Source: Bacteroidota bacterium (lineage in GTDB: Bacteria; Bacteroidota; Bacteroidia; UKL13-3). From it: a DNA stretch of 62,423 bases. This document shows positions 25,422 to 36,780 of this stretch, in pieces (within the stretch, counting starts at the first letter, position 1; each line of letters begins with the position of its first letter). The DNA lies in NCBI GenBank assembly GCA_947460345.1, contig CANHGM010000017.1, forward strand, positions 1-62,423, written 5' to 3'. A program made the translations under genes and the position numbers. The notes under the pieces are model-generated. The model saw only the letters and a program-made list of their open reading frames with translations, was not told the origin of the DNA and did not search any database.

Positions 25422-25979
25422 TTATATAAATCTCTCGAAAGTCCAATAAATTGCTACACATCCAATGATACTCGAAATAGGATAAACAATTCTTGTTTTA
25501 TACCAGACTTTATTAGAAAACCATTTAAAGAATATATAATAAGCCAGAATAATTACTAGTATTTGTCCTAACTCAACGCCAATATTAAAGAATAATAAAG
25601 AACTGATAAAGTTTTGAGTTGGTATACCAACTTCATTTAAAGCGTTTGCAAACCCCAATCCATGTATAATTCCGAATATAAAAATTATATAGATTCTTAT
25701 GGGATGATTTTTTCGCGAAGCTATATTTTCTATAGCTGAATACAAAATGGTTAAGGAAATTAAAGGCTCAACTATATACAAATTTGAAACAACAAACCCC
25801 ATTGCCGTGAATGCTAACGATAAACTATGAGCAACTGTAAATACACTACATTGTATAACCACAGATTTGAAATTGGAAGCAAATAGAAAAATAGATAAAA
25901 TAAAAAGTATATGGTCATATCCTAAAGGAATTACATGACTAAATCCAATAATAACATATCGCCAAGCAATATCTATCAT
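25422..25979 (-). CDS. HupE/UreJ-family membrane protein
   Basis: A 185-residue protein with about six hydrophobic segments. HupE/UreJ signatures are GFSHVIPLGYDHILFI near the N-terminus, AHSLSLAF and HGLGFANAL, whose His and Asp residues are thought to take part in Ni/Co movement in characterised HupE proteins. No hydrogenase or urease gene is nearby, so the metal and role here are open. It is the last gene of a five-gene minus-strand operon of secreted proteins. Confidence 0.82.
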   Translation of the reverse strand: MIDIAWRYVIIGFSHVIPLGYDHILFILSIFLFASNFKSVVIQCSVFTVAHSLSLAFTAMGFVVSNLYIVEPLISLTILYSAIENIASRKNHPIRIYIIFIFGIIHGLGFANALNEVGIPTQNFISSLLFFNIGVELGQILVIILAYYIFFKWFSNKVWYKTRIVYPISSIIGCVAIYWTFERFI

Positions 25980-25989
25980 ATTGAAATAT

Positions 25990-27201
25990 TTACCTTGAAA
26001 TGATCAATTTATATACATTTTGGTAATGTTCATCAACAATACTTATCCAATATATTCCATTTGGTATTAATGATATATCTGTCGTTTTATTTGCCTTACT
26101 CATTGTTAACGTTTCAACTATTGTTCCTTGAATATTGTATATATGAATTACGGGGTTAGTATATGATTCTATGGGCAATTGAATGAAGTCGCTAGCTGGA
26201 TTAGGATATATAAAGATATTTTTTTGAAGTATTTCATTTGAATTAATCCCAGTATTTGATGTTTTGTTTCTCACACACATTACATAATTTGAATTTGTTT
26301 TATTATCATATGTTGTGATTCCAAACTGTGTATCCCAATACCAAGCTTTTAGAGTTTGGTTAGGAAGGGTAGTAGAAGACCAATATTTTTTTATTCCTAT
26401 TTGAGTAGATAAGATTGGGTTTACTGAAGGATTTATATGTGTTTCATCATTTAATGATTGTAACTCTTTTATATTTGGGAGTCTCCAATCTGAATATCCA
26501 GCAAGTGTTAAATTTTCTGCATGTATAAGTGCTTGTTCCCAAGTCAACAAGTTTTGGTTTGGGATATGTTGCCACTCTAATAATGTAATATTGTCTGTTA
26601 TGGTGCTATCTAAATTATCTATAAAATGATTTGGGATTGAAATAGGATTAATAACATCTCTCACTGCTCTCACATGGAATTTTTTATTGCCTCCTGCACT
26701 CACTGTTTCTGACTTTGGATGATTGCCTATGCCGCCTCCAGCATTGGTGCACCATACTTTGGTTTTGTCGTTCAATTGATATTCTGATGTCCACCAATAC
26801 TCAGCTGCTGTCTTTGTGAATATATTTATATCTAAAGCAGGGTTACTATATTGATGGTTCAAAATACTAAATGATTCTTGAGCATTAGGTAGCCTCCAGT
26901 CTGAATAACCCCCTAGTGTTAACGTATCACAATATATATACGCATCTTCAATAGTCATTTCACCTCCATCTGATTGTTGCCACATTAGCGAAGTAATAGT
27001 GTCTACAACAGTGCCGTTTACATTTTTAAGAAAAAATGGAGTGTTTATATTATAATCATTGTCTTCTCCAAAAGTGCTGGTATAACTTGTTTTTTGTCCA
27101 GTATCTGGTAGTCTTAACATTGTTTTCGTTACACTTTGAGCTTGGATATTAACTCCCATTAAAAGTAACACACAAAACATATATATATTAGAAAACTTCA
27201 T
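25990..27201 (-). CDS. Secreted protein with two Lcl/DUF1566 domains and T9SS sorting domain
   Basis: A 403-residue protein with a signal peptide (MKFSNIYMFCVLLLMGVNIQ). Two copies of the Lcl C-terminal (DUF1566) domain are seen, marked by WRLPNAQE ... YWWTSEY and WRLPNIKELQSL ... YWSSTTL ... VMCVRN. The end is a type A T9SS sorting domain (YPNPASDFIQL, IPNGIYWISI). DUF1566 domains occur in surface adhesins and collagen-like proteins. It lies 10 nt before hupE and 3 nt after the YHYH gene. Confidence 0.8.
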   Translation of the reverse strand: MKFSNIYMFCVLLLMGVNIQAQSVTKTMLRLPDTGQKTSYTSTFGEDNDYNINTPFFLKNVNGTVVDTITSLMWQQSDGGEMTIEDAYIYCDTLTLGGYSDWRLPNAQESFSILNHQYSNPALDINIFTKTAAEYWWTSEYQLNDKTKVWCTNAGGGIGNHPKSETVSAGGNKKFHVRAVRDVINPISIPNHFIDNLDSTITDNITLLEWQHIPNQNLLTWEQALIHAENLTLAGYSDWRLPNIKELQSLNDETHINPSVNPILSTQIGIKKYWSSTTLPNQTLKAWYWDTQFGITTYDNKTNSNYVMCVRNKTSNTGINSNEILQKNIFIYPNPASDFIQLPIESYTNPVIHIYNIQGTIVETLTMSKANKTTDISLIPNGIYWISIVDEHYQNVYKLIISR

Positions 27202-27204
27202 CTG

Positions 27205-28809
27205 TTATTGTTTGATGATTTTTTTGGTGATTTGTGAATCTTTTAATTTGATTATAACTAAATATGTTCCTTTTGAAAGTGTATTGGTTTCAATCGTTTT
27301 CTTATATTTATCTATTACTAAAACTTGCTCACCTAATAAGTTATAAAGGCTTATTTCTTTGATGTCTTTTTCTATATTGGTATTGCCTAGAAGTATATTT
27401 ATATAATCGTAAGCTGGATTTGGAAAAACAGAAATTTGATTTTCAAGTGCGTTTATGGTTGCAATATATACGCCCACATCACATTGTTTAAATCCATTAT
27501 AGGTATTGGTCGTTTTTACACCATTCACATAGGCATTAAATGTATATTTACCAGTAGTGTTCCAACTGTATTCCACTGAATCTGTTTTTCCGTTTAAGGT
27601 ATATGTTAAGGTATAACCATTTTTGGTATTATTGGGTGTACATCCAGTGATAACAGCACCTTTTAAAGGAGTGCCAGCTGGTCTGATAGGAGAGGCTGCT
27701 GCTTGTGGTATTATTTGAAGTGTGGTATCTTCTGTTACTTGACCCACCATATTTCCAATCATATATGGTGCAGCTTTGGTACCATGGTAGTGATATACGC
27801 CATTGTTTCCATCATGTCCATGGTTTGCATCTAAAGTCTTCATGGTTGTTCCATCTGGTTCTTTGTTTCCATATATAGCATAGCCATCTAAAGCAAATGC
27901 AATAGGCACTATATGGGCTGATTGTCCTTCTAAAAACAAGGGTGCTATATGATAATGGTAATCATCTGCTCTTCCGCAATGTCCACCAAAATTATCTAAT
28001 TGTCCATCTAAATAAGCATCTATACCGGTATTGGTATAAGGGTTAAAAATAGCAACGCCATTTGCTGCAATAGCCACAGCTCCTCTTAAAAAATGTTTAT
28101 TATTAACCGGAATAGGAGTAGCTGCTTTTACAGGGTTTAAAGGAATACTCCATGCATTATTGCCAATATAACATTGTGGTATGGGAAACTGTTGTTGCCA
28201 TCCTTTTATACCTGTCATCATCTCATGATCGGGGATACCTTTAGATTCAACATGAAAATAAGTATTATCCCAACGAGTAGCTACTTTGGGTTTAAATACA
28301 GCAAAAGCAGAATCAACATATAGTGGGTCGGTGATGGTATTCATACGTTTCATCACACTTGAAGTAAAACTGAACAAAACCAATGAGCTGCCCATAAATA
28401 TTATAGGTAATATATACTTAAAGTTTGTTGAATTCTTTTTCTTTAAACTATAAATCCAAGTAGGGATTATACCTATCGTTAATATAAAAAGAATGATGAA
28501 TGTTAAGTTTTCGTTTTTAGTATTTTTTTTATTTTCTTGACTATTAATTAAATTTACTTGATGTATTTTTTGAGTTAAAAATAGTTGGTCTTCTTGGCTA
28601 AAAGATTGAAGCGGGTATTGATAAATTTGATGGTTAGAACCTTCTATATATATAAGTGCATTCTTATACATCAAAAAAGTACCATCAATGGTTTTATGTT
28701 CTTTGCTTATATTCCATGTTTTTAAAATGATTTTTTCATAATGAGCATCATGGGCAAACACTATACTACTGCTAACAAACACCAGTATTAAGATAATGAT
28801 TTTTTTCAT
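27205..28809 (-). CDS. YHYH-domain protein with N-terminal SHD1-like region, two TM segments and T9SS tail
   Basis: 534 residues. The order is: signal peptide (to about residue 20), an SHD1/SLA1-homology-like segment (about 25-85: KTWNISKEHKTIDG ... PLQSFSQEDQLFL), two hydrophobic segments at about 104-124 and 131-151, the YHYH domain (about 165-410) with GGHCGRADDYHYHIAP and GHDGNNGVYHYHGTKAAPY, and a type A T9SS sorting domain (FPNPAYDYINI, LSKGTYLVII). The His-rich YHYH motifs probably bind metal. A T9SS tail behind two membrane segments is contradictory, since T9SS cargo is normally soluble in the periplasm. Function unknown. Confidence 0.78.
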   Translation of the reverse strand: MKKIIILILVFVSSSIVFAHDAHYEKIILKTWNISKEHKTIDGTFLMYKNALIYIEGSNHQIYQYPLQSFSQEDQLFLTQKIHQVNLINSQENKKNTKNENLTFIILFILTIGIIPTWIYSLKKKNSTNFKYILPIIFMGSSLVLFSFTSSVMKRMNTITDPLYVDSAFAVFKPKVATRWDNTYFHVESKGIPDHEMMTGIKGWQQQFPIPQCYIGNNAWSIPLNPVKAATPIPVNNKHFLRGAVAIAANGVAIFNPYTNTGIDAYLDGQLDNFGGHCGRADDYHYHIAPLFLEGQSAHIVPIAFALDGYAIYGNKEPDGTTMKTLDANHGHDGNNGVYHYHGTKAAPYMIGNMVGQVTEDTTLQIIPQAAASPIRPAGTPLKGAVITGCTPNNTKNGYTLTYTLNGKTDSVEYSWNTTGKYTFNAYVNGVKTTNTYNGFKQCDVGVYIATINALENQISVFPNPAYDYINILLGNTNIEKDIKEISLYNLLGEQVLVIDKYKKTIETNTLSKGTYLVIIKLKDSQITKKIIKQ

Positions 28810-28814
28810 GGGGT

Positions 28815-30521
28815 TTATTTATTTAAAATAATTTTACCTGATGATTTGACAATTGAATTTTCTGAAATATGATACCAATATATACCAGCAGTTAAAGGAT
28901 TCCCATTTCCATCTTTCCCGTCCCATACTACTTGGTATTTTCCCTCAAGTAATAAATTGGTTTGAAATAAGTTTCTAACTAAACGTCCTTGTTCATCAAA
29001 GATTTGTAAAGTAATTCTATTTGCATTTTTAACAGAAAACTCAATGGTGGTTTCCTGTTCAAATGGGTTTGGATATACCAATTCGTCTGCATAGTTTTTA
29101 TTCCAAATGACTGGAACTCCTGTTGACAATGAATCATAACAATTTACTTTTCCTATATAATACGTAGCTGAAATGTCTTTGTTTTTTCTAGTTGCTGTTT
29201 CGTTTTTAGGCAAGTAGGCTCTTATATATTCTACTTTAACACCATTTGAATCTACTAATACTTTTATATGCCCAGCATTAGGTAATATTTGCCCCTGAAA
29301 ATATCCATAATCTGCTGCTGAAGAGTTTTGGAAGTTAGGCAAACTGGGTTGTGGTGTTTCTTGATACACCAAACAGTTTTTATCTTGTTTGCCAAAGAAA
29401 TGGTCGTGCCCGTGAAAGAATATAGTCACTTTATTTTCTTCTAGTATTTGTCTTATAGGCTTATCCCATCCAGGTCTGTTGGTAGCAAATCCTTCTGTAC
29501 CATCTAAGTTTTTTCCACCCCATTCATATCTGTCAGCAAACTCAACACCGCCTCTGCCTTCTGGGTCTCCGCCTATAATTTGGTGTGAAAATACAAATTT
29601 GAAAGGTGACTTGCTATTTGCTAAAGTGGTCTTTAACCATTCGTATTGAACTTTGCCTAGTGTCCATCCCCAACCATGCAAGGAGTCAGGTTTTGGTCCT
29701 GTGTACCAATAAGGGTCTATAACTATAAACAATGCATCTCCCCAAGTCCATGCATAATAATTTTCTCGTTTGCCTATATATGTATGATTGATTGTATCGC
29801 CTGTATAAAAATTATTAGGCTCAGGGTTCAAGAAATATTTCTTTCTTTCTTGTGTTCCCCATATGGCAATATTGTTAGGTGTATTGTTTAAATTCCATTT
29901 TGCCTCTCCTTCATGATTGCCCAATGCTATAAATAAAGGCACTGAATGACCAATGTTTTCATAATATGAGCGAAGCAATTTACATCTATAAGGAATGGTA
30001 TCTTTGGGTACAATTTTGTTTGCATTTCTAAGTTTATCGGTCATCAAAAAATCGCCTAGATCTATCATAAAGTCAGGCTTGTCGTCTAATTGGTTTTGAA
30101 GACAGGTCCTATATAATGCAGTATCGCTTGATGCATCTAAATGTGGATCGGCTTGAACCATAAACGTAAACCCTGAACCTGTTTTTCTTTGTGTTTGGAA
30201 AGAATAAGTGGGTCTGGTGATATAGTTTGATGCTCCTTTATTTTTATATATAAGCGCATAAAAATATTTAGTATCAGCTTGCAATCCATTTATAATAATC
30301 TCAGCTGAATCGCCTGCAGCAAATGTTTGCCATGCTGTTTGGTTTAATAGGTTTGATGGACTGAGGCCATAGGTAACCGCTACCTCTACTTCGCTATCAA
30401 AAAACATCTCAACTGTTACCGATTGATCTGTTGGTCTGCCAAGCAATTCCTTGTGTAAGATATTTTGAGCTTGTGTATAAATAGTTGTATATATAAAAAC
30501 TGACAAAAGTATATATCTCAT
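28815..30521 (-). CDS. Secreted metallophosphoesterase (purple acid phosphatase-like) with T9SS/FlgD-like tail
   Basis: A 568-residue protein with a signal peptide ending near TQAQ. An N-terminal fibronectin-like domain (GRPTDQSVTVEMFFDSEVEV) is followed by a calcineurin-like phosphoesterase: QADPHLD, MIDLGDF, ALGNHEGE, FSHQIIGG and HGHDH give the dinuclear metal ligands. The tail (YPNPFEQETTI, WDGKDGNGNPLTAGIYWYHI) is of the FlgD-like T9SS type. It is probably an extracellular phosphatase; the substrate is unknown. It is a tandem paralogue of the next gene upstream. Confidence 0.87.
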   Translation of the reverse strand: MRYILLSVFIYTTIYTQAQNILHKELLGRPTDQSVTVEMFFDSEVEVAVTYGLSPSNLLNQTAWQTFAAGDSAEIIINGLQADTKYFYALIYKNKGASNYITRPTYSFQTQRKTGSGFTFMVQADPHLDASSDTALYRTCLQNQLDDKPDFMIDLGDFLMTDKLRNANKIVPKDTIPYRCKLLRSYYENIGHSVPLFIALGNHEGEAKWNLNNTPNNIAIWGTQERKKYFLNPEPNNFYTGDTINHTYIGKRENYYAWTWGDALFIVIDPYWYTGPKPDSLHGWGWTLGKVQYEWLKTTLANSKSPFKFVFSHQIIGGDPEGRGGVEFADRYEWGGKNLDGTEGFATNRPGWDKPIRQILEENKVTIFFHGHDHFFGKQDKNCLVYQETPQPSLPNFQNSSAADYGYFQGQILPNAGHIKVLVDSNGVKVEYIRAYLPKNETATRKNKDISATYYIGKVNCYDSLSTGVPVIWNKNYADELVYPNPFEQETTIEFSVKNANRITLQIFDEQGRLVRNLFQTNLLLEGKYQVVWDGKDGNGNPLTAGIYWYHISENSIVKSSGKIILNK

Positions 30522-30532
30522 TTTTTAGATTA

Positions 30533-32191
30533 TTAATGTTGAATGATGATTTTTTTGGTAGTGGTATTGGTATTTGTTTCTACTGTCAAATAATATACAC
30601 CATTCATTAAAGTTGCTGTTTCAAGCTCTCTTAAAGTTGTTAGAATCATTAATTGCCCTACAGAATTATATAATTTAATTTGATAGTTTTTAATATTGTC
30701 TGATAATTGAACCATTAGTTTATCTTGAGCTGGGTTAGGATATACATGTATATATTCTTTCTCAATGCTTGCTTGATTAATTCCAATATTGCCACAAGTA
30801 CCAATGGTATAAGTAAACCCAACTTCTCCATTTTTATGTTGACCATTAATTGTATCAGCTGGTAAATACGCTTTTATATAATCTATTTTTAAGCACTCTG
30901 GTGAAACAGTTACTTTTATATGTCCAGTACCATCTAATGTATCAGAGGTATATGCATCTGCATTTGCCAATTTACCAATCATATAAGTCGAATCGCTAGG
31001 CATAGGCACAGCTTGGTAAGTGACACCATCTAACACTTCATGAGCAAAAACATGGTCGTGGCCTTGGAAAAATATATTCACGCCATTGTCTACAAACAAT
31101 TGGTGAATAGGTTTAGCCCAACCTGGTCTTTTGTTAGGAAAATTATAGTTAGTACCGTTTTTACCATCATAACCTCCCCATTCAAACAGCTTGGCATTGG
31201 TGATACCGCCTCTCCCTTGACCACGAATGTGGTGGGCAAACACAAACTTATATTTAGCTGTGCTTCCTTCTAAAGTGCTTTTAAGCCAATCGTATTGGGG
31301 TTTTCCAAGTGACCAGTCCCAATTGGTTGGTTTGTCTGAAGTATCGCATTGGTCTCTGTATACATCTAAAACCACATATAAGGCATCGCCCCAAGTCCAC
31401 GAATAGTAATTCTCTGGATTCCCAATGCCATATGATTCTATATTGGTATTTCCTGAATAAAAACTGTTTGGGAAAGGGTTGGGGTAATAGAATTTTCTCC
31501 ATTGGGTTCCCATAATGGCCAAATTGTTTGGTGGGTTTATTCCCATATAATAATCGTTTTCACCTTCATGATTCCCTAAGCATACATAGAAGGGTATAGA
31601 ATGACAGATGCTTCCTAAAAAAGGGCGGTAATTTTTATGAAGCAAGTCTAATTCTTGTGAGGTGATGGTTTTCCATTCATGGTCATCTCCAAATATATCG
31701 CCTAACGAAAGCATAAAGTCTGGTTTGTCGTTGGCTTGGTTGTTTAAGCATAGTTGGTAGATGCTTTTTACTCCTTTCTTGTCATATAAATGTTCGTCAG
31801 CTTCTATCGTAAATGTAAAGGTGCTTCCTTTGGCTCTTTGGGTATGAAATGTATATTCAGCAGATGGTGAATACTGACTAGCACCCACAAGTTTATATTG
31901 CACCCTGTAGAAATAGTTTGTATTGGGTATCAGGTTATGCAAATCAATTTCATCAGGTGAACCTGCAGTATTGGTATAGGTTATACTTTTGTTTATAAAG
32001 CTACCTGTTTGGGTACCATATTCAAAATAGTATTCATTACTTTGTTCAAATAAAATACTGGCTGTGATAGAGGTGTCAGTTGGACGACCAAGAATAATAG
32101 AATGAATCTGAGCTTGTATGGTATTGTTAAAAAATAACAAAGCAAGAAATAAAGTAAAAAGGAGGCTATTGCTGGGTTTTGAATGCTTCAT
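30533..32191 (-). CDS. Secreted metallophosphoesterase (purple acid phosphatase-like) with T9SS tail
   Basis: A 552-residue paralogue of the downstream gene, with the same order of domains: signal peptide, fibronectin-like domain starting GRPTDTSITASILFEQ, metallophosphoesterase with EADEHLYD, LSLGDIFGDDHEW, CLGNHEGE, FAHHIRGQGRGG and QGHDH, and a type A T9SS tail (YPNPAQDKLMV, LMNGVYYLTVETN). It heads the five-gene operon (intergenic gaps of 11, 5, 3 and 10 nt). No promoter match was clear in the 217 nt upstream. Confidence 0.87.
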   Translation of the reverse strand: MKHSKPSNSLLFTLFLALLFFNNTIQAQIHSIILGRPTDTSITASILFEQSNEYYFEYGTQTGSFINKSITYTNTAGSPDEIDLHNLIPNTNYFYRVQYKLVGASQYSPSAEYTFHTQRAKGSTFTFTIEADEHLYDKKGVKSIYQLCLNNQANDKPDFMLSLGDIFGDDHEWKTITSQELDLLHKNYRPFLGSICHSIPFYVCLGNHEGENDYYMGINPPNNLAIMGTQWRKFYYPNPFPNSFYSGNTNIESYGIGNPENYYSWTWGDALYVVLDVYRDQCDTSDKPTNWDWSLGKPQYDWLKSTLEGSTAKYKFVFAHHIRGQGRGGITNAKLFEWGGYDGKNGTNYNFPNKRPGWAKPIHQLFVDNGVNIFFQGHDHVFAHEVLDGVTYQAVPMPSDSTYMIGKLANADAYTSDTLDGTGHIKVTVSPECLKIDYIKAYLPADTINGQHKNGEVGFTYTIGTCGNIGINQASIEKEYIHVYPNPAQDKLMVQLSDNIKNYQIKLYNSVGQLMILTTLRELETATLMNGVYYLTVETNTNTTTKKIIIQH

Positions 32192-32408: not shown

Positions 32409-32660
32409 CTATCTCAAAGTCATTATTTCAATTTTCATATATGGGTAGTAGGGCAGTGTTGAAAGTTTTTTATCAGCATCCGTTTTGTCATTCGCCATAA
32501 GCACCAAGTATATTCCGACTGCGTCAGCTTTTATATAAGATGCCAAAAGTGTCCCATTGTCTTCCCACACTTTTATCATTTCTTGTTCTTTGGGTAATAA
32601 TTTCATTCTAGTTTCATTGTCTAATCCTTGTAATAGGATATCAATCATATATTTATTCAT
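32409..32660 (-). CDS. Small dimeric alpha-beta-barrel-like protein (muconolactone-isomerase/YciI type)
   Basis: An 83-residue soluble protein. The pattern of a beta strand at the start (NKYMIDILLQ), a helix with KLLPKEQEMIKVWED, and the end LPYYPYMKIEIMTL is typical of muconolactone delta-isomerase-like and YciI-like dimeric ferredoxin-fold proteins. No degradative pathway is nearby; function is open. It has its own terminator. Confidence 0.6.
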   Translation of the reverse strand: MNKYMIDILLQGLDNETRMKLLPKEQEMIKVWEDNGTLLASYIKADAVGIYLVLMANDKTDADKKLSTLPYYPYMKIEIMTLR

Positions 32661-32996: not shown

Positions 32997-34340
32997 TTAA
33001 TCTTTAACAAATTTACTGGTAAATATCACCCCGTTTTCTGTAATAGCTTTTACAATATAAATACCGTTTGTTAATTCAGAAATGTCAATTGTTTTTTCTT
33101 TACTTTTCAAAATTAAAGCACCTTTGAAATCTAAAACTTCTATATTTTGAAATGGAGTATTTATATTTAGAGTAATTTCATTATGAGCTGGATTGGGGAA
33201 CAACATTCCATCTAAATGCAGGTTGACGGCTTCATCCACACCAGTTTTAATAAAAAATCTATTGGGTGAAGCATTAATACAATTTTGAGTACTTCTCATC
33301 ATATCATATGCAAAGGCACCTGAATCATATAGTTTTGTAGCTGATGATGTGATAAGTCCAGTAACTAATGAAACGCCTACTATTTGATTGCCGCTGCTAA
33401 AAAAGTAGGTCATAGAATCTGGATCAATAAAGGCTCCTCCGGTTAAGTTGCCTCCGGCTCCAATATTGAATGGTGAAACAAAAGTAACAACACCTGAGTT
33501 AGGATTTATTTTAGAAAGTCTAAACGTAGTTGAATCTATAACATCAATATAAGTCATAAGAAGGCTGTCATAAACCGAAGAAACATAATTTTGACGGGTT
33601 AAACCATATATAGATGTATCAATGCAACTATATGCAATATTTTCAAAAATACCATATGGAGGAAGTTGAATAGGGACAGCACTATATTCAGCACCTGTAT
33701 ATAAATCTATACCTATCAAAGTATCAACTGCTGAGTAATAATACAACATTTGAAATGGATCAATAGAGTTACCAGCCAATGTATATAGGTTGCTAAATGA
33801 AGAATTACCAATTAAACTATATTGCCCTGTTGCAGGATTTATGGAAGCAAATCGGATTTGAGTAGAATCAAGTACTTCAACATTTGTCATTAAAACGCTG
33901 TCGTAATAGGTTGAATAAAAATTATGGGGTATCATGCCATATATGATAGAATCACTTGGGTTGAACCTGATGTTTTGGAATGAAGCTGAAGGAAGGGGGC
34001 CAGAAATGGGAACATTGTTAATAATGTCTCCTGTAATCATATCAAAAGTTAAGAGGTTAAAACCACTTCCTATGTAATAATGTTTTAAATAAGGATCTAT
34101 AGTAGCACCATTTAGATTAATGGCAGATTTATATTCTGAAGTTCCTATGTTAAAAACAATACCTGTTATTGGATCTACACTTCCTAGCCTTATCGTAGAT
34201 GAATCTAATACATCAACATTTGTCATTAAGGTACTATCATAATAAGAAGAAAAATAATTTTTCCTTACTATCCCAAAATTTTGTGCAAATGCAAATTGCA
34301 TAGCAAAAACCAGAGCGATAAATAATAGGTGTTTTTTCAT
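32997..34340 (-). CDS. Secreted T9SS protein with three ~107-residue internal repeats
   Basis: 447 residues with signal peptide MKKHLLFIALVFAMQFAFAQ. Three tandem repeats begin FGIVRKNYFSSYYDS, YGMIPHNFYSTYYDS and YGLTRQNYVSSVYDS; each continues with a VLDS/VIDS T-[IF]-R segment, a GS..PITG-type turn and a strand-turn-strand resembling beta-propeller blades. A type A T9SS domain closes it (FPNPAHNEITL, LTNGIYIVKA). The repeats look like a propeller-type binding module. Function unknown. Confidence 0.78.
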   Translation of the reverse strand: MKKHLLFIALVFAMQFAFAQNFGIVRKNYFSSYYDSTLMTNVDVLDSSTIRLGSVDPITGIVFNIGTSEYKSAINLNGATIDPYLKHYYIGSGFNLLTFDMITGDIINNVPISGPLPSASFQNIRFNPSDSIIYGMIPHNFYSTYYDSVLMTNVEVLDSTQIRFASINPATGQYSLIGNSSFSNLYTLAGNSIDPFQMLYYYSAVDTLIGIDLYTGAEYSAVPIQLPPYGIFENIAYSCIDTSIYGLTRQNYVSSVYDSLLMTYIDVIDSTTFRLSKINPNSGVVTFVSPFNIGAGGNLTGGAFIDPDSMTYFFSSGNQIVGVSLVTGLITSSATKLYDSGAFAYDMMRSTQNCINASPNRFFIKTGVDEAVNLHLDGMLFPNPAHNEITLNINTPFQNIEVLDFKGALILKSKEKTIDISELTNGIYIVKAITENGVIFTSKFVKD

Positions 34341-34510: not shown

Positions 34511-36706
34511 TTATAACGTGGCTCCGATACTCACAAAAATTGTTCTACCGTTACCAGGCATTAAACCAGGTCCAGGATAACCGCCAGCCCTTCGTGTTGC
34601 GTATTTTTCATTTGTCATGTTATTGATACCAGCCCTTAAATTATAACGTTCCAAAAATTTATAAGAAAGTGACGCATCCATTACTTTATACCCTGAAAGT
34701 TTCCCGATGGTACCAGTTGAATTGGGAGTTTCGGTATTTGCAGCATCGGTATATACGTCTCCAACTATGCTTAATTGCCAAGTTGCAGAAAATCCTTTGA
34801 GATAATAGGTTGTTCCAAATCGGTGAATTTGCTTAGGGGCATTTTCTACTCTTTTGTTTTCAATTGATTTTGTAGGGTCATTTGCAATGGCCGGGTTGTT
34901 CCATTTCACATATATAGCATCTATGAAAGAATTAGATGCAAAAAAACTTATACTGCCATATTTAAGTTTGTTTTTGAAAATTTTAATTGGATTTATTTCG
35001 ATATATGATTCTATACCTTTGCTCACAGAATTGCCAATATTTGTTTTAAACGGTACTCCATTTTGTGATAATGTACCTATGCGGTTGTCATAATTCAGGT
35101 AAAAAACTCCCACATCAAAAGTTAAATAGTTTTTTACAGTTCCTCTATAACCAAAGTCAGCATTGAAACCGCTCGCATCTTTTAAATTGGGGTCAATTAT
35201 TTCATTTGTTGCTGATGGTGTTAGTTCTGAAAATGTTACTGGGCGGTATGCCAAAGAGTAGTTACCATATATATTGGTTTTTTCTGAAACCATAAACTCA
35301 CTTCCAATGCCGTAAAGGAAAAGTGGACGAATTCTTTTATCCGGGTTTAATGTTCCTGTTTGTGTGGTGTTGATATATCCCTTGCTTTGATTTTCAATAT
35401 AGTCAAAACGAAAACCTGGAATAACCTTTAATCGTTTACTTATTTGAAAAATATTTTCTGCAAATACAGCATAATTAGTTGTACCAAACTCTAATGAACG
35501 ACCGTAATTTGGACTGGTAAGCGTTAAATCATATTGATTGCCGGTTGTTCCTACCCCAAGTTGATTTCTTTTTGTATTGCCAAAATATGCTCTGACGCCA
35601 CCAGCCAATACATTCATTTTTTTGAAGAATTTATATTTAACAGACACCCGCATTTCAGCACCAAAATTTTTGTAATTATCTCTATCCACCTGACGTGAAT
35701 CATATTGAAGTGTAGTTGGATTTATACTGTCTTTTATATTAATAGGTTTTGTATATCCAACACTATTTCTTTCAGCCACAACAGCAAAAGATTTGATTTG
35801 TATATTTATTGATTTTGAAATCTCATATTTAAAAGTAATTGATGCAACGTTAAATGGAGCTCCAAACCAATTTCTTTCTCTAGATGATTGACGATGGTTT
35901 TCATTGAATTGAAAATCTGTAAGACCTCCCGGCTGTTGACTTTCATAATTCATATTAGTATATTCTCCAGCAATATTTATTTTTTTGGTTAGCTGATAAT
36001 TTGCAGAGAAGTAGCCGGTGTATATACTATAACGACTATTGTTTCGCCAACCTTCAGAAGTTCGGTTATGCATAAATCCATAATAAGAAAACTTTTTATA
36101 TGTTCCGCCAATTGCATTATAGGTATTGAACAAGTTGTATGATCCAACGGTTTGTTGACTTTCAAAAGTAAATGGCTTGTTAGGATTACCTTTTTTAACT
36201 TGATAATTCAGCAATCCGCCAAACTGTGGGCCATATTGCAATGAAGCAGCTCCTCTAACGACTTCAATACTTTTCAAGGCTTCCATTGGAGGTGTATAAT
36301 AAGTTTCAGGGTAGCCAAAAACTTCTGAACTTATATCATATCCATTTTGCCTCACATTAAATTCCCATGAACGGTTAGGACTTAATCCCCTTGATGCCAC
36401 TCCAGCCTGAATGCCTGAGCCATCATTTTCCCATATACTCATGCCCGGAACTTTTGCAAACACCTGACGGGTATTGTTGGTACTTAAGTCTGCATTTAGT
36501 TTAGACAATTGTATAACTTCTGTTTTTTTTCCTACATAAATCACGTTGTCTTTCAAATCAGGCATCCTCTCTAAATCGCTTATAGATTGATCTTCATGTT
36601 TGGTAACTTCTTTAAGTGTTATGGTTTTTGTTGTATCTATTTGCTGTGAATTTGCGGTATAAAATGCCATTAAACTAAAAGAGAAAAGCAGTTGTAATTT
36701 TTTCAT
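34511..36706 (-). CDS. TonB-dependent outer-membrane receptor (FecA-like, likely iron/siderophore)
   Basis: About 731 residues when started at the ATG at 36706, which opens the signal peptide MKKLQLLFSFSLMAFYTANS; the frame runs to 36739. The plug domain follows (QVFAKVPGMSIWENDGSGIQ, SLQYGPQFGGLLNY), then a 22-strand beta-barrel with YGNYSLAYRPVTFSELTP and the C-terminal barrel end. The plug resembles ferric-citrate type receptors. The gene is preceded by a 23-bp Fur-like palindrome, which supports iron-responsive control. The substrate is inferred, not shown. Confidence 0.88.
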   Translation of the reverse strand: MKKLQLLFSFSLMAFYTANSQQIDTTKTITLKEVTKHEDQSISDLERMPDLKDNVIYVGKKTEVIQLSKLNADLSTNNTRQVFAKVPGMSIWENDGSGIQAGVASRGLSPNRSWEFNVRQNGYDISSEVFGYPETYYTPPMEALKSIEVVRGAASLQYGPQFGGLLNYQVKKGNPNKPFTFESQQTVGSYNLFNTYNAIGGTYKKFSYYGFMHNRTSEGWRNNSRYSIYTGYFSANYQLTKKINIAGEYTNMNYESQQPGGLTDFQFNENHRQSSRERNWFGAPFNVASITFKYEISKSINIQIKSFAVVAERNSVGYTKPINIKDSINPTTLQYDSRQVDRDNYKNFGAEMRVSVKYKFFKKMNVLAGGVRAYFGNTKRNQLGVGTTGNQYDLTLTSPNYGRSLEFGTTNYAVFAENIFQISKRLKVIPGFRFDYIENQSKGYINTTQTGTLNPDKRIRPLFLYGIGSEFMVSEKTNIYGNYSLAYRPVTFSELTPSATNEIIDPNLKDASGFNADFGYRGTVKNYLTFDVGVFYLNYDNRIGTLSQNGVPFKTNIGNSVSKGIESYIEINPIKIFKNKLKYGSISFFASNSFIDAIYVKWNNPAIANDPTKSIENKRVENAPKQIHRFGTTYYLKGFSATWQLSIVGDVYTDAANTETPNSTGTIGKLSGYKVMDASLSYKFLERYNLRAGINNMTNEKYATRRAGGYPGPGLMPGNGRTIFVSIGATL

Positions 36707-36780
36707 AAAAGATTTATCAGCTGTTAATTTTTCCCGCAAAGATTAGTCTCAATATTGAATTTCACAATTAAGCAACCAAA

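Follow-up and report, generated by a model that had tools for sequence, protein, structure and literature searches.

Five minus-strand genes on a contig of a Bacteroidota bacterium form a tight operon, and the gene cluster that it represents is conserved in recognisable form across many freshwater Bacteroidota and is not an accident of one strain. Judged from sequence and gene neighbourhood, the operon may well be a conserved envelope or surface module that captures and handles a transition metal, copper being the likeliest; we hold this reading with about even confidence. Most HupE/UreJ-2 proteins encoded away from hydrogenase and urease genes have no assigned function, and an operon that joins YHYH and HupE, with a predicted metal-binding His and with copper-type partners in relatives, makes the functions of both directly testable. 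If the reading is true, an uncharacterised metal-handling system is added to freshwater Bacteroidota.

Operon layout and conservation

The window is the whole 62,423-nucleotide stretch of contig CANHGM010000017.1 (assembly GCA_947460345.1). The operon genes are as follows.

25422..25979 (-), HupE_UreJ_2 membrane protein, 185 aa (Pfam HupE_UreJ_2, 147 bits)
25990..27201 (-), Lcl_C (DUF1566-type) secreted protein with T9SS tail, 403 aa (Pfam Lcl_C, 164 bits, and Por_Secre_tail)
27205..28809 (-), YHYH protein with T9SS tail, 534 aa (Pfam YHYH, 51 bits, and Por_Secre_tail)
28815..30521 (-), MPE2, secreted calcineurin-like metallophosphoesterase with T9SS tail, 568 aa (Pfam Metallophos and Por_Secre_tail)
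30533..32191 (-), MPE1, secreted calcineurin-like metallophosphoesterase with T9SS tail, 552 aa, first gene of the operon (Pfam Metallophos and Por_Secre_tail)

Transcription runs MPE1-MPE2-YHYH-Lcl-HupE, with gaps in that order of 11, 5, 3 and 10 nt, so that the coordinates given in a preliminary description of the sequence are confirmed. Pfam and TIGR04183 also agree with its count of four secreted, T9SS-tailed proteins and one HupE-type membrane protein: the sorting domain exceeds the cut-off in all four (PF18962, 31-47 bits against 27; TIGR04183, 33-43 against 23), and MPE1, MPE2, YHYH and Lcl each have a signal-peptide-like N-terminus. The source genome encodes PorP/SprF-family T9SS proteins.

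The operon is separated from the next gene upstream by a small ORF of 83 aa (32409-32660, minus strand), muconolactone-isomerase/YciI-like by eye only. After this ORF comes a terminator-like GCCCATGA...TCATGGGC-T run, which suggests that MPE1 has its own promoter downstream of that ORF. Farther upstream on the same strand are a T9SS-tailed protein of unknown family (32997-34340) and a TonB-dependent receptor with sub-threshold matches of siderophore/ferric-dicitrate type (34511-36739); neither is a recurrent member of the cluster.

The YHYH type of about 530 aa occurs in 15 of 64 same-family genomes, spread over 8 of 14 genera. An Lcl gene adjoins it in all 15 and phosphoesterase genes in 11, while operon-type HupE was found in six genomes of the family (G020, G022, G034, G051, G059 and G000, the source genome). 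Searching more widely with the YHYH alignment brought up 80 loci in Bacteroidota and Chlorobiota records, nearly all of them MAGs; these are best matches, partly related and not mutually independent, and gene families in their neighbourhoods were assigned by single-reference phmmer. Many of the contigs are short, so the counts are lower bounds: at least 58 loci have Lcl, 39 MPE1, 37 MPE2, 33 an unnamed T9SS protein (x410) and 23 HupE, and the full five-gene set is present in at least 11. The exact gene order of the window recurs in L113, L129, L138 and L033, and with x410 inserted in L112, L128 and L170. The adjacency from which the preliminary description argued for a system thus extends well beyond one strain. 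HupE, being missing from most loci, cannot be essential to the core.

Some members of the collection depart from the common form. Operon-type YHYH genes at L147:4108-6921 and L160:370-2451 have a large insertion or extension, the former reading as 937 aa. Loci L173 and L176-L181 form a branch of shorter operon-type YHYH proteins with no recognised T9SS tail, several of which adjoin a PEBP/YbhB-like protein in place of Lcl. Genome G225 has seven YHYH matches, of which G225:C47:4313-4855 has several in-frame stops and is likely decayed.

Both phosphoesterases match Metallophos (PF00149) well above the cut-off of 21.5 bits (40 and 38 bits), and the calcineurin-type motifs DxH, GD, GNHE, H320 and GHDH, a binuclear-type metal site, are invariant in 14 aligned sequences. 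Purple acid phosphatases have DxG as motif I and GDxxY, with its metal-tyrosinate, as motif II. All 14 sequences have DxH and no Tyr after the GD of motif II, and the N-terminal PAP-domain match falls under the Pfam cut-off. We therefore reject membership in that family; the earlier label 'purple-acid-phosphatase-like' applies only in a loose sense.

Two enzymes that lead the operon, keep an intact metal site and occur in nearly half of the loci could themselves be its purpose. The operon would then scavenge phosphate, with YHYH, Lcl and HupE as helpers that load or anchor the secreted metallophosphoesterases. We consider this unlikely, for YHYH and Lcl stay together in many loci that lack phosphoesterases (L089, L091, L036, L108, L110, L133 and others), and the recurrent neighbours of the 80 loci include metal-type genes, with no phosphate-uptake genes seen among them.

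The YHYH protein and the HupE_UreJ_2 membrane protein

The YHYH protein consists of a signal peptide, an N-terminal domain of about 75 aa, two hydrophobic helices with a Lys-rich loop, the YHYH domain and the T9SS tail.

28750..28752 (-), codon of H20, with which the mature YHYH protein is predicted to begin (near-invariant among relatives)
28360..28500 (-), TM hairpin predicted at about aa 104-150, its loop rich in Lys (from sequence, and hydropathy on relatives)
27445..28332 (-), YHYH domain, aa 160-455 (AlphaFold2 model, mean pLDDT 95.9), with conserved D272, H277, Y284, H285, H287, D308 and D327

His stands at the predicted signal-peptidase site (e.g. ...SSSIVFA/HDAHYEK) in about 74 of 75 full-length relatives, whereas Q predominates at the predicted mature N-terminus of the co-encoded MPE1, MPE2, Lcl and x410. 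Cleavage sites were judged by a rule and by eye rather than by a trained predictor, and the rule goes wrong on some YHYH proteins in which an FAH site is evident by eye. The N-terminal domain gives matches to SHD1 in four of five sequences tested, at E values of 8e-4 to 0.04, under the Pfam cut-off; the window protein gives none.

The predicted hairpin between the N-terminal and YHYH domains did not figure in the preliminary description. By a hydropathy rule and a simple tail pattern, 63 of 73 full-length relatives have the two helices, 61 the T9SS tail and 55 both. Simple export to the surface is difficult to square with a protein that has both a T9SS tail and two predicted TM helices.

The YHYH (PF14240) match scores 51 bits against a cut-off of 25. 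D272, H277, Y284, H285, H287 and D308 are near-invariant in both the short and the long YHYH types, in line with the Zn site predicted for this domain (PMC7824862). With a 92-sequence alignment AlphaFold2 gave the confident model listed above; with 12 close relatives pLDDT was mostly below 40. Foldseek found no PDB match to the model at E <= 0.001, and VIA-align gave Z scores of at most 7.2, mostly for the C-terminal beta meander and within the range of common arrangements. A viral structure library yielded one match, a phage protein named YHYH (E 1.4e-3), and a sequence search of solved structures returned only T9SS tails, weak phosphatase and FlgD-type matches and one doubtful phage protein. 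With no confident structural match to this model, no known fold can be assigned to the domain, which does not prove that the fold is new.

The operon's membrane protein covers positions 1-154 of 156 of PF13795 (HupE_UreJ_2) at 147.5 bits, against a cut-off of 24.5, and reaches only 30 bits with PF04955. Within the operon-specific subfamily H15-x6-D22-H23, H51, E71, H106-G, E136 and Q139 are invariant. Nickel-type HupE proteins have the spacing H-x5-DH. Neither NiFe hydrogenase nor urease alpha was found in the source genome, which is 99% complete; this bears out the absence of both enzymes noted earlier, and we reject a Ni/Co supply for either. The assignment of Ni or Co taken from the HupE name is not supported, given the PF13795 score and the copper-type partners (MbnP/MbnH, CueO-like oxidase) of relatives.

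All six high-scoring HupE proteins of the 64 family genomes adjoin an operon-type YHYH gene. In the phylum sample, HupE_UreJ_2 occurs in 70 of 247 genomes and is generally not near YHYH, the two adjoining only in the window genome and G267. A general linkage of HupE with YHYH is thus rejected, and the link is confined to one HupE subfamily. A 40-sequence tree places operon-type HupE apart from a type found beside an M1 aminopeptidase-like gene, whose branch is well supported; the groups were set by profile score, so the tree is supportive and not independent. The very long HupE of L040 sits within the operon group, in an unsure placement. HupE and the His-bearing YHYH protein are encoded by different genes, both in the window and in each of the 23 loci that have HupE.

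Copper-type partners and proposed function

Among the 80 loci, recurrent partners are redoxin (14), sulfatase-type matches (14), a second, longer YHYH protein (13), multicopper oxidase (11), a di-haem CCP/MauG protein that is MbnH-like (9) and MbnP (8). Random expectation is 0.36 of 80 loci for a single-copy gene in a 3-Mb genome and 1.8 at five copies per genome; kinship among the loci makes the 0.36 a rough yardstick and not a p-value. The multicopper oxidase is closest to CueO and the di-haem protein to the MbnH family, both under the equivalog cut-offs, and MbnP is PF20243, above its cut-off. MbnP is present in 64 of 64 family genomes, with one copy commonly a few kb from a long YHYH gene. 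In 13 loci an ECF sigma factor is encoded upstream of the cluster, and in 14 a small sensor-like protein; of five such proteins scanned, two exceed the Metal_resist cut-off (Metal_resist/Spy-like) and three have no such match.

We infer from these cluster variants with metal-related partners that the metal is probably copper. Copper-type genes adjoin the cluster in only a minority of loci, and the window contains none of the partners listed here, so the copper assignment of its operon is carried over from relatives. No multicopper oxidase was found in the source genome. That genome has a second YHYH locus on a separate contig, G000:C3 (L095:6284-11040), with MbnP, MbnH-like, sulfatase and long YHYH genes. 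The metal handling proposed in the preliminary description is backed by the cluster variants. HupE is the least constant member of the gene set.

The ECF and Spy-like genes, the CueO-like oxidase and the redoxin would also suit a response to metal stress, in which these proteins, MbnP/MbnH and YHYH oxidise and sequester excess copper under a stress sensor. We give such detoxification a low probability. An efflux pump is absent from the list of recurrent neighbours of the 80 loci. MbnP/MbnH have been compared with CorA and MopE, which are produced when copper is low and for which a part in acquisition has been proposed (PMC3912023), although the sequence of MbnP shows no marked likeness to theirs (PMC3621798).

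Most products of the cluster are T9SS-tailed, Lcl_C occurs in adhesins (Lsa25 match) and sulfatase-type matches recur, all of which would fit a cell-surface set for enzymatic work or adhesion that has no tie to metal supply, with HupE and the copper-type genes as neighbours of no shared function. This we regard as improbable: several metal-type families co-localise repeatedly and in varied gene orders, and the predicted N-terminal His of the YHYH protein is conserved.

Under the metal-capture reading, cleavage of the YHYH protein by signal peptidase would expose the N-terminal His on a small SHD1-like domain in the periplasm, and the two-helix hairpin would hold the protein at the membrane. 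Metal would be bound by this His, perhaps also by the His/Asp-rich YHYH domain, and might then be handed to the HupE_UreJ_2 permease of the same operon, a gene that other branches lack. At the outer surface, the T9SS-secreted metallophosphoesterases and Lcl would either use the metal so supplied or release phosphate or metal from organic ligands. A broader version of this reading appears doubtful to us, namely that the cluster is a new, widespread copper-acquisition system of Bacteroidota in which a membrane-anchored N-terminal-His/YHYH protein feeds HupE_UreJ_2 and is coupled to surface metallophosphoesterases, YHYH being a new copper-handling fold linked to MbnP/MbnH.

Comparison with known systems

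The HupE nickel transporter of Rhizobium (PF04955) is a distant relative of the operon's HupE, whose best family is PF13795; the operon protein differs in its spacing, H-x6-DH against H-x5-DH, and in coming from a genome in which no hydrogenase or urease was found. YcnI and YcnJ of Bacillus subtilis, a protein with a copper-binding domain that works with a putative copper importer (PMC8424229, PMC12362106), resemble the proposed module in outline, as a binding protein paired with an importer; the protein families differ.

MbnP and MbnH-like genes occur in several cluster variants, together with long YHYH, and invite comparison with MbnP/MbnH, CorA/CorB and MopE/SACCP (PMC3621798, PMC3912023). 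CorA and MopE, like the cytochromes that partner them, are copper proteins of the cell surface whose production copper represses (PMC3912023). MbnP/MbnH pairs lie in methanobactin operons, and the 2013 paper held no data tying close MbnP homologues to copper (PMC3621798). The pair is absent from the window operon, the copies of the source genome being on other contigs, e.g. G000:C3.

YHYH proteins are known from bacteria and phages, and in diatoms they rank with the prevalent families (PMC7824862, PMC11992049). Our literature search found no tested function for them and no paper treating both YHYH and HupE. As far as searched, the statement that no described system has this gene set therefore holds, but HupE/UreJ-2, N-terminal-His metal-binding domains and metallophosphatase neighbours were published together in 2025 (PMC12537917).

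These are the anglerases, copper-binding domains with a conserved N-terminal His, fused to HupE/UreJ-2, for which Kd values of 62-74 nM were measured (Franco Cairo et al. 2025, PMC12537917). Copper binding was shown for Ang-1 and Ang-2, a hand-over of metal to the permease was proposed for Ang-HupE/UreJ-2, and metallophosphatases are among the commonest neighbours of Ang-2 genes (PMC12537917). Like Ang-1 and Ang-2, the operon combines a predicted N-terminal His after a signal peptide with a PF13795 permease, and like the neighbourhoods of Ang-2 it includes metallophosphatase genes. Unlike them, it has the His-bearing domain on a separate protein, YHYH, and not fused to HupE_UreJ_2; this domain, of about 75 aa, seems SHD1-like, from sub-threshold scores of relatives, where anglerases have an Ig beta-sandwich. 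In the YHYH protein the predicted TM hairpin links it to a YHYH domain, mostly followed by a T9SS tail. The operon thus holds the three elements of the anglerase system in split form, and by this analogy we propose that it is a split, anglerase-like module for the capture of metal, probably copper, at the envelope.
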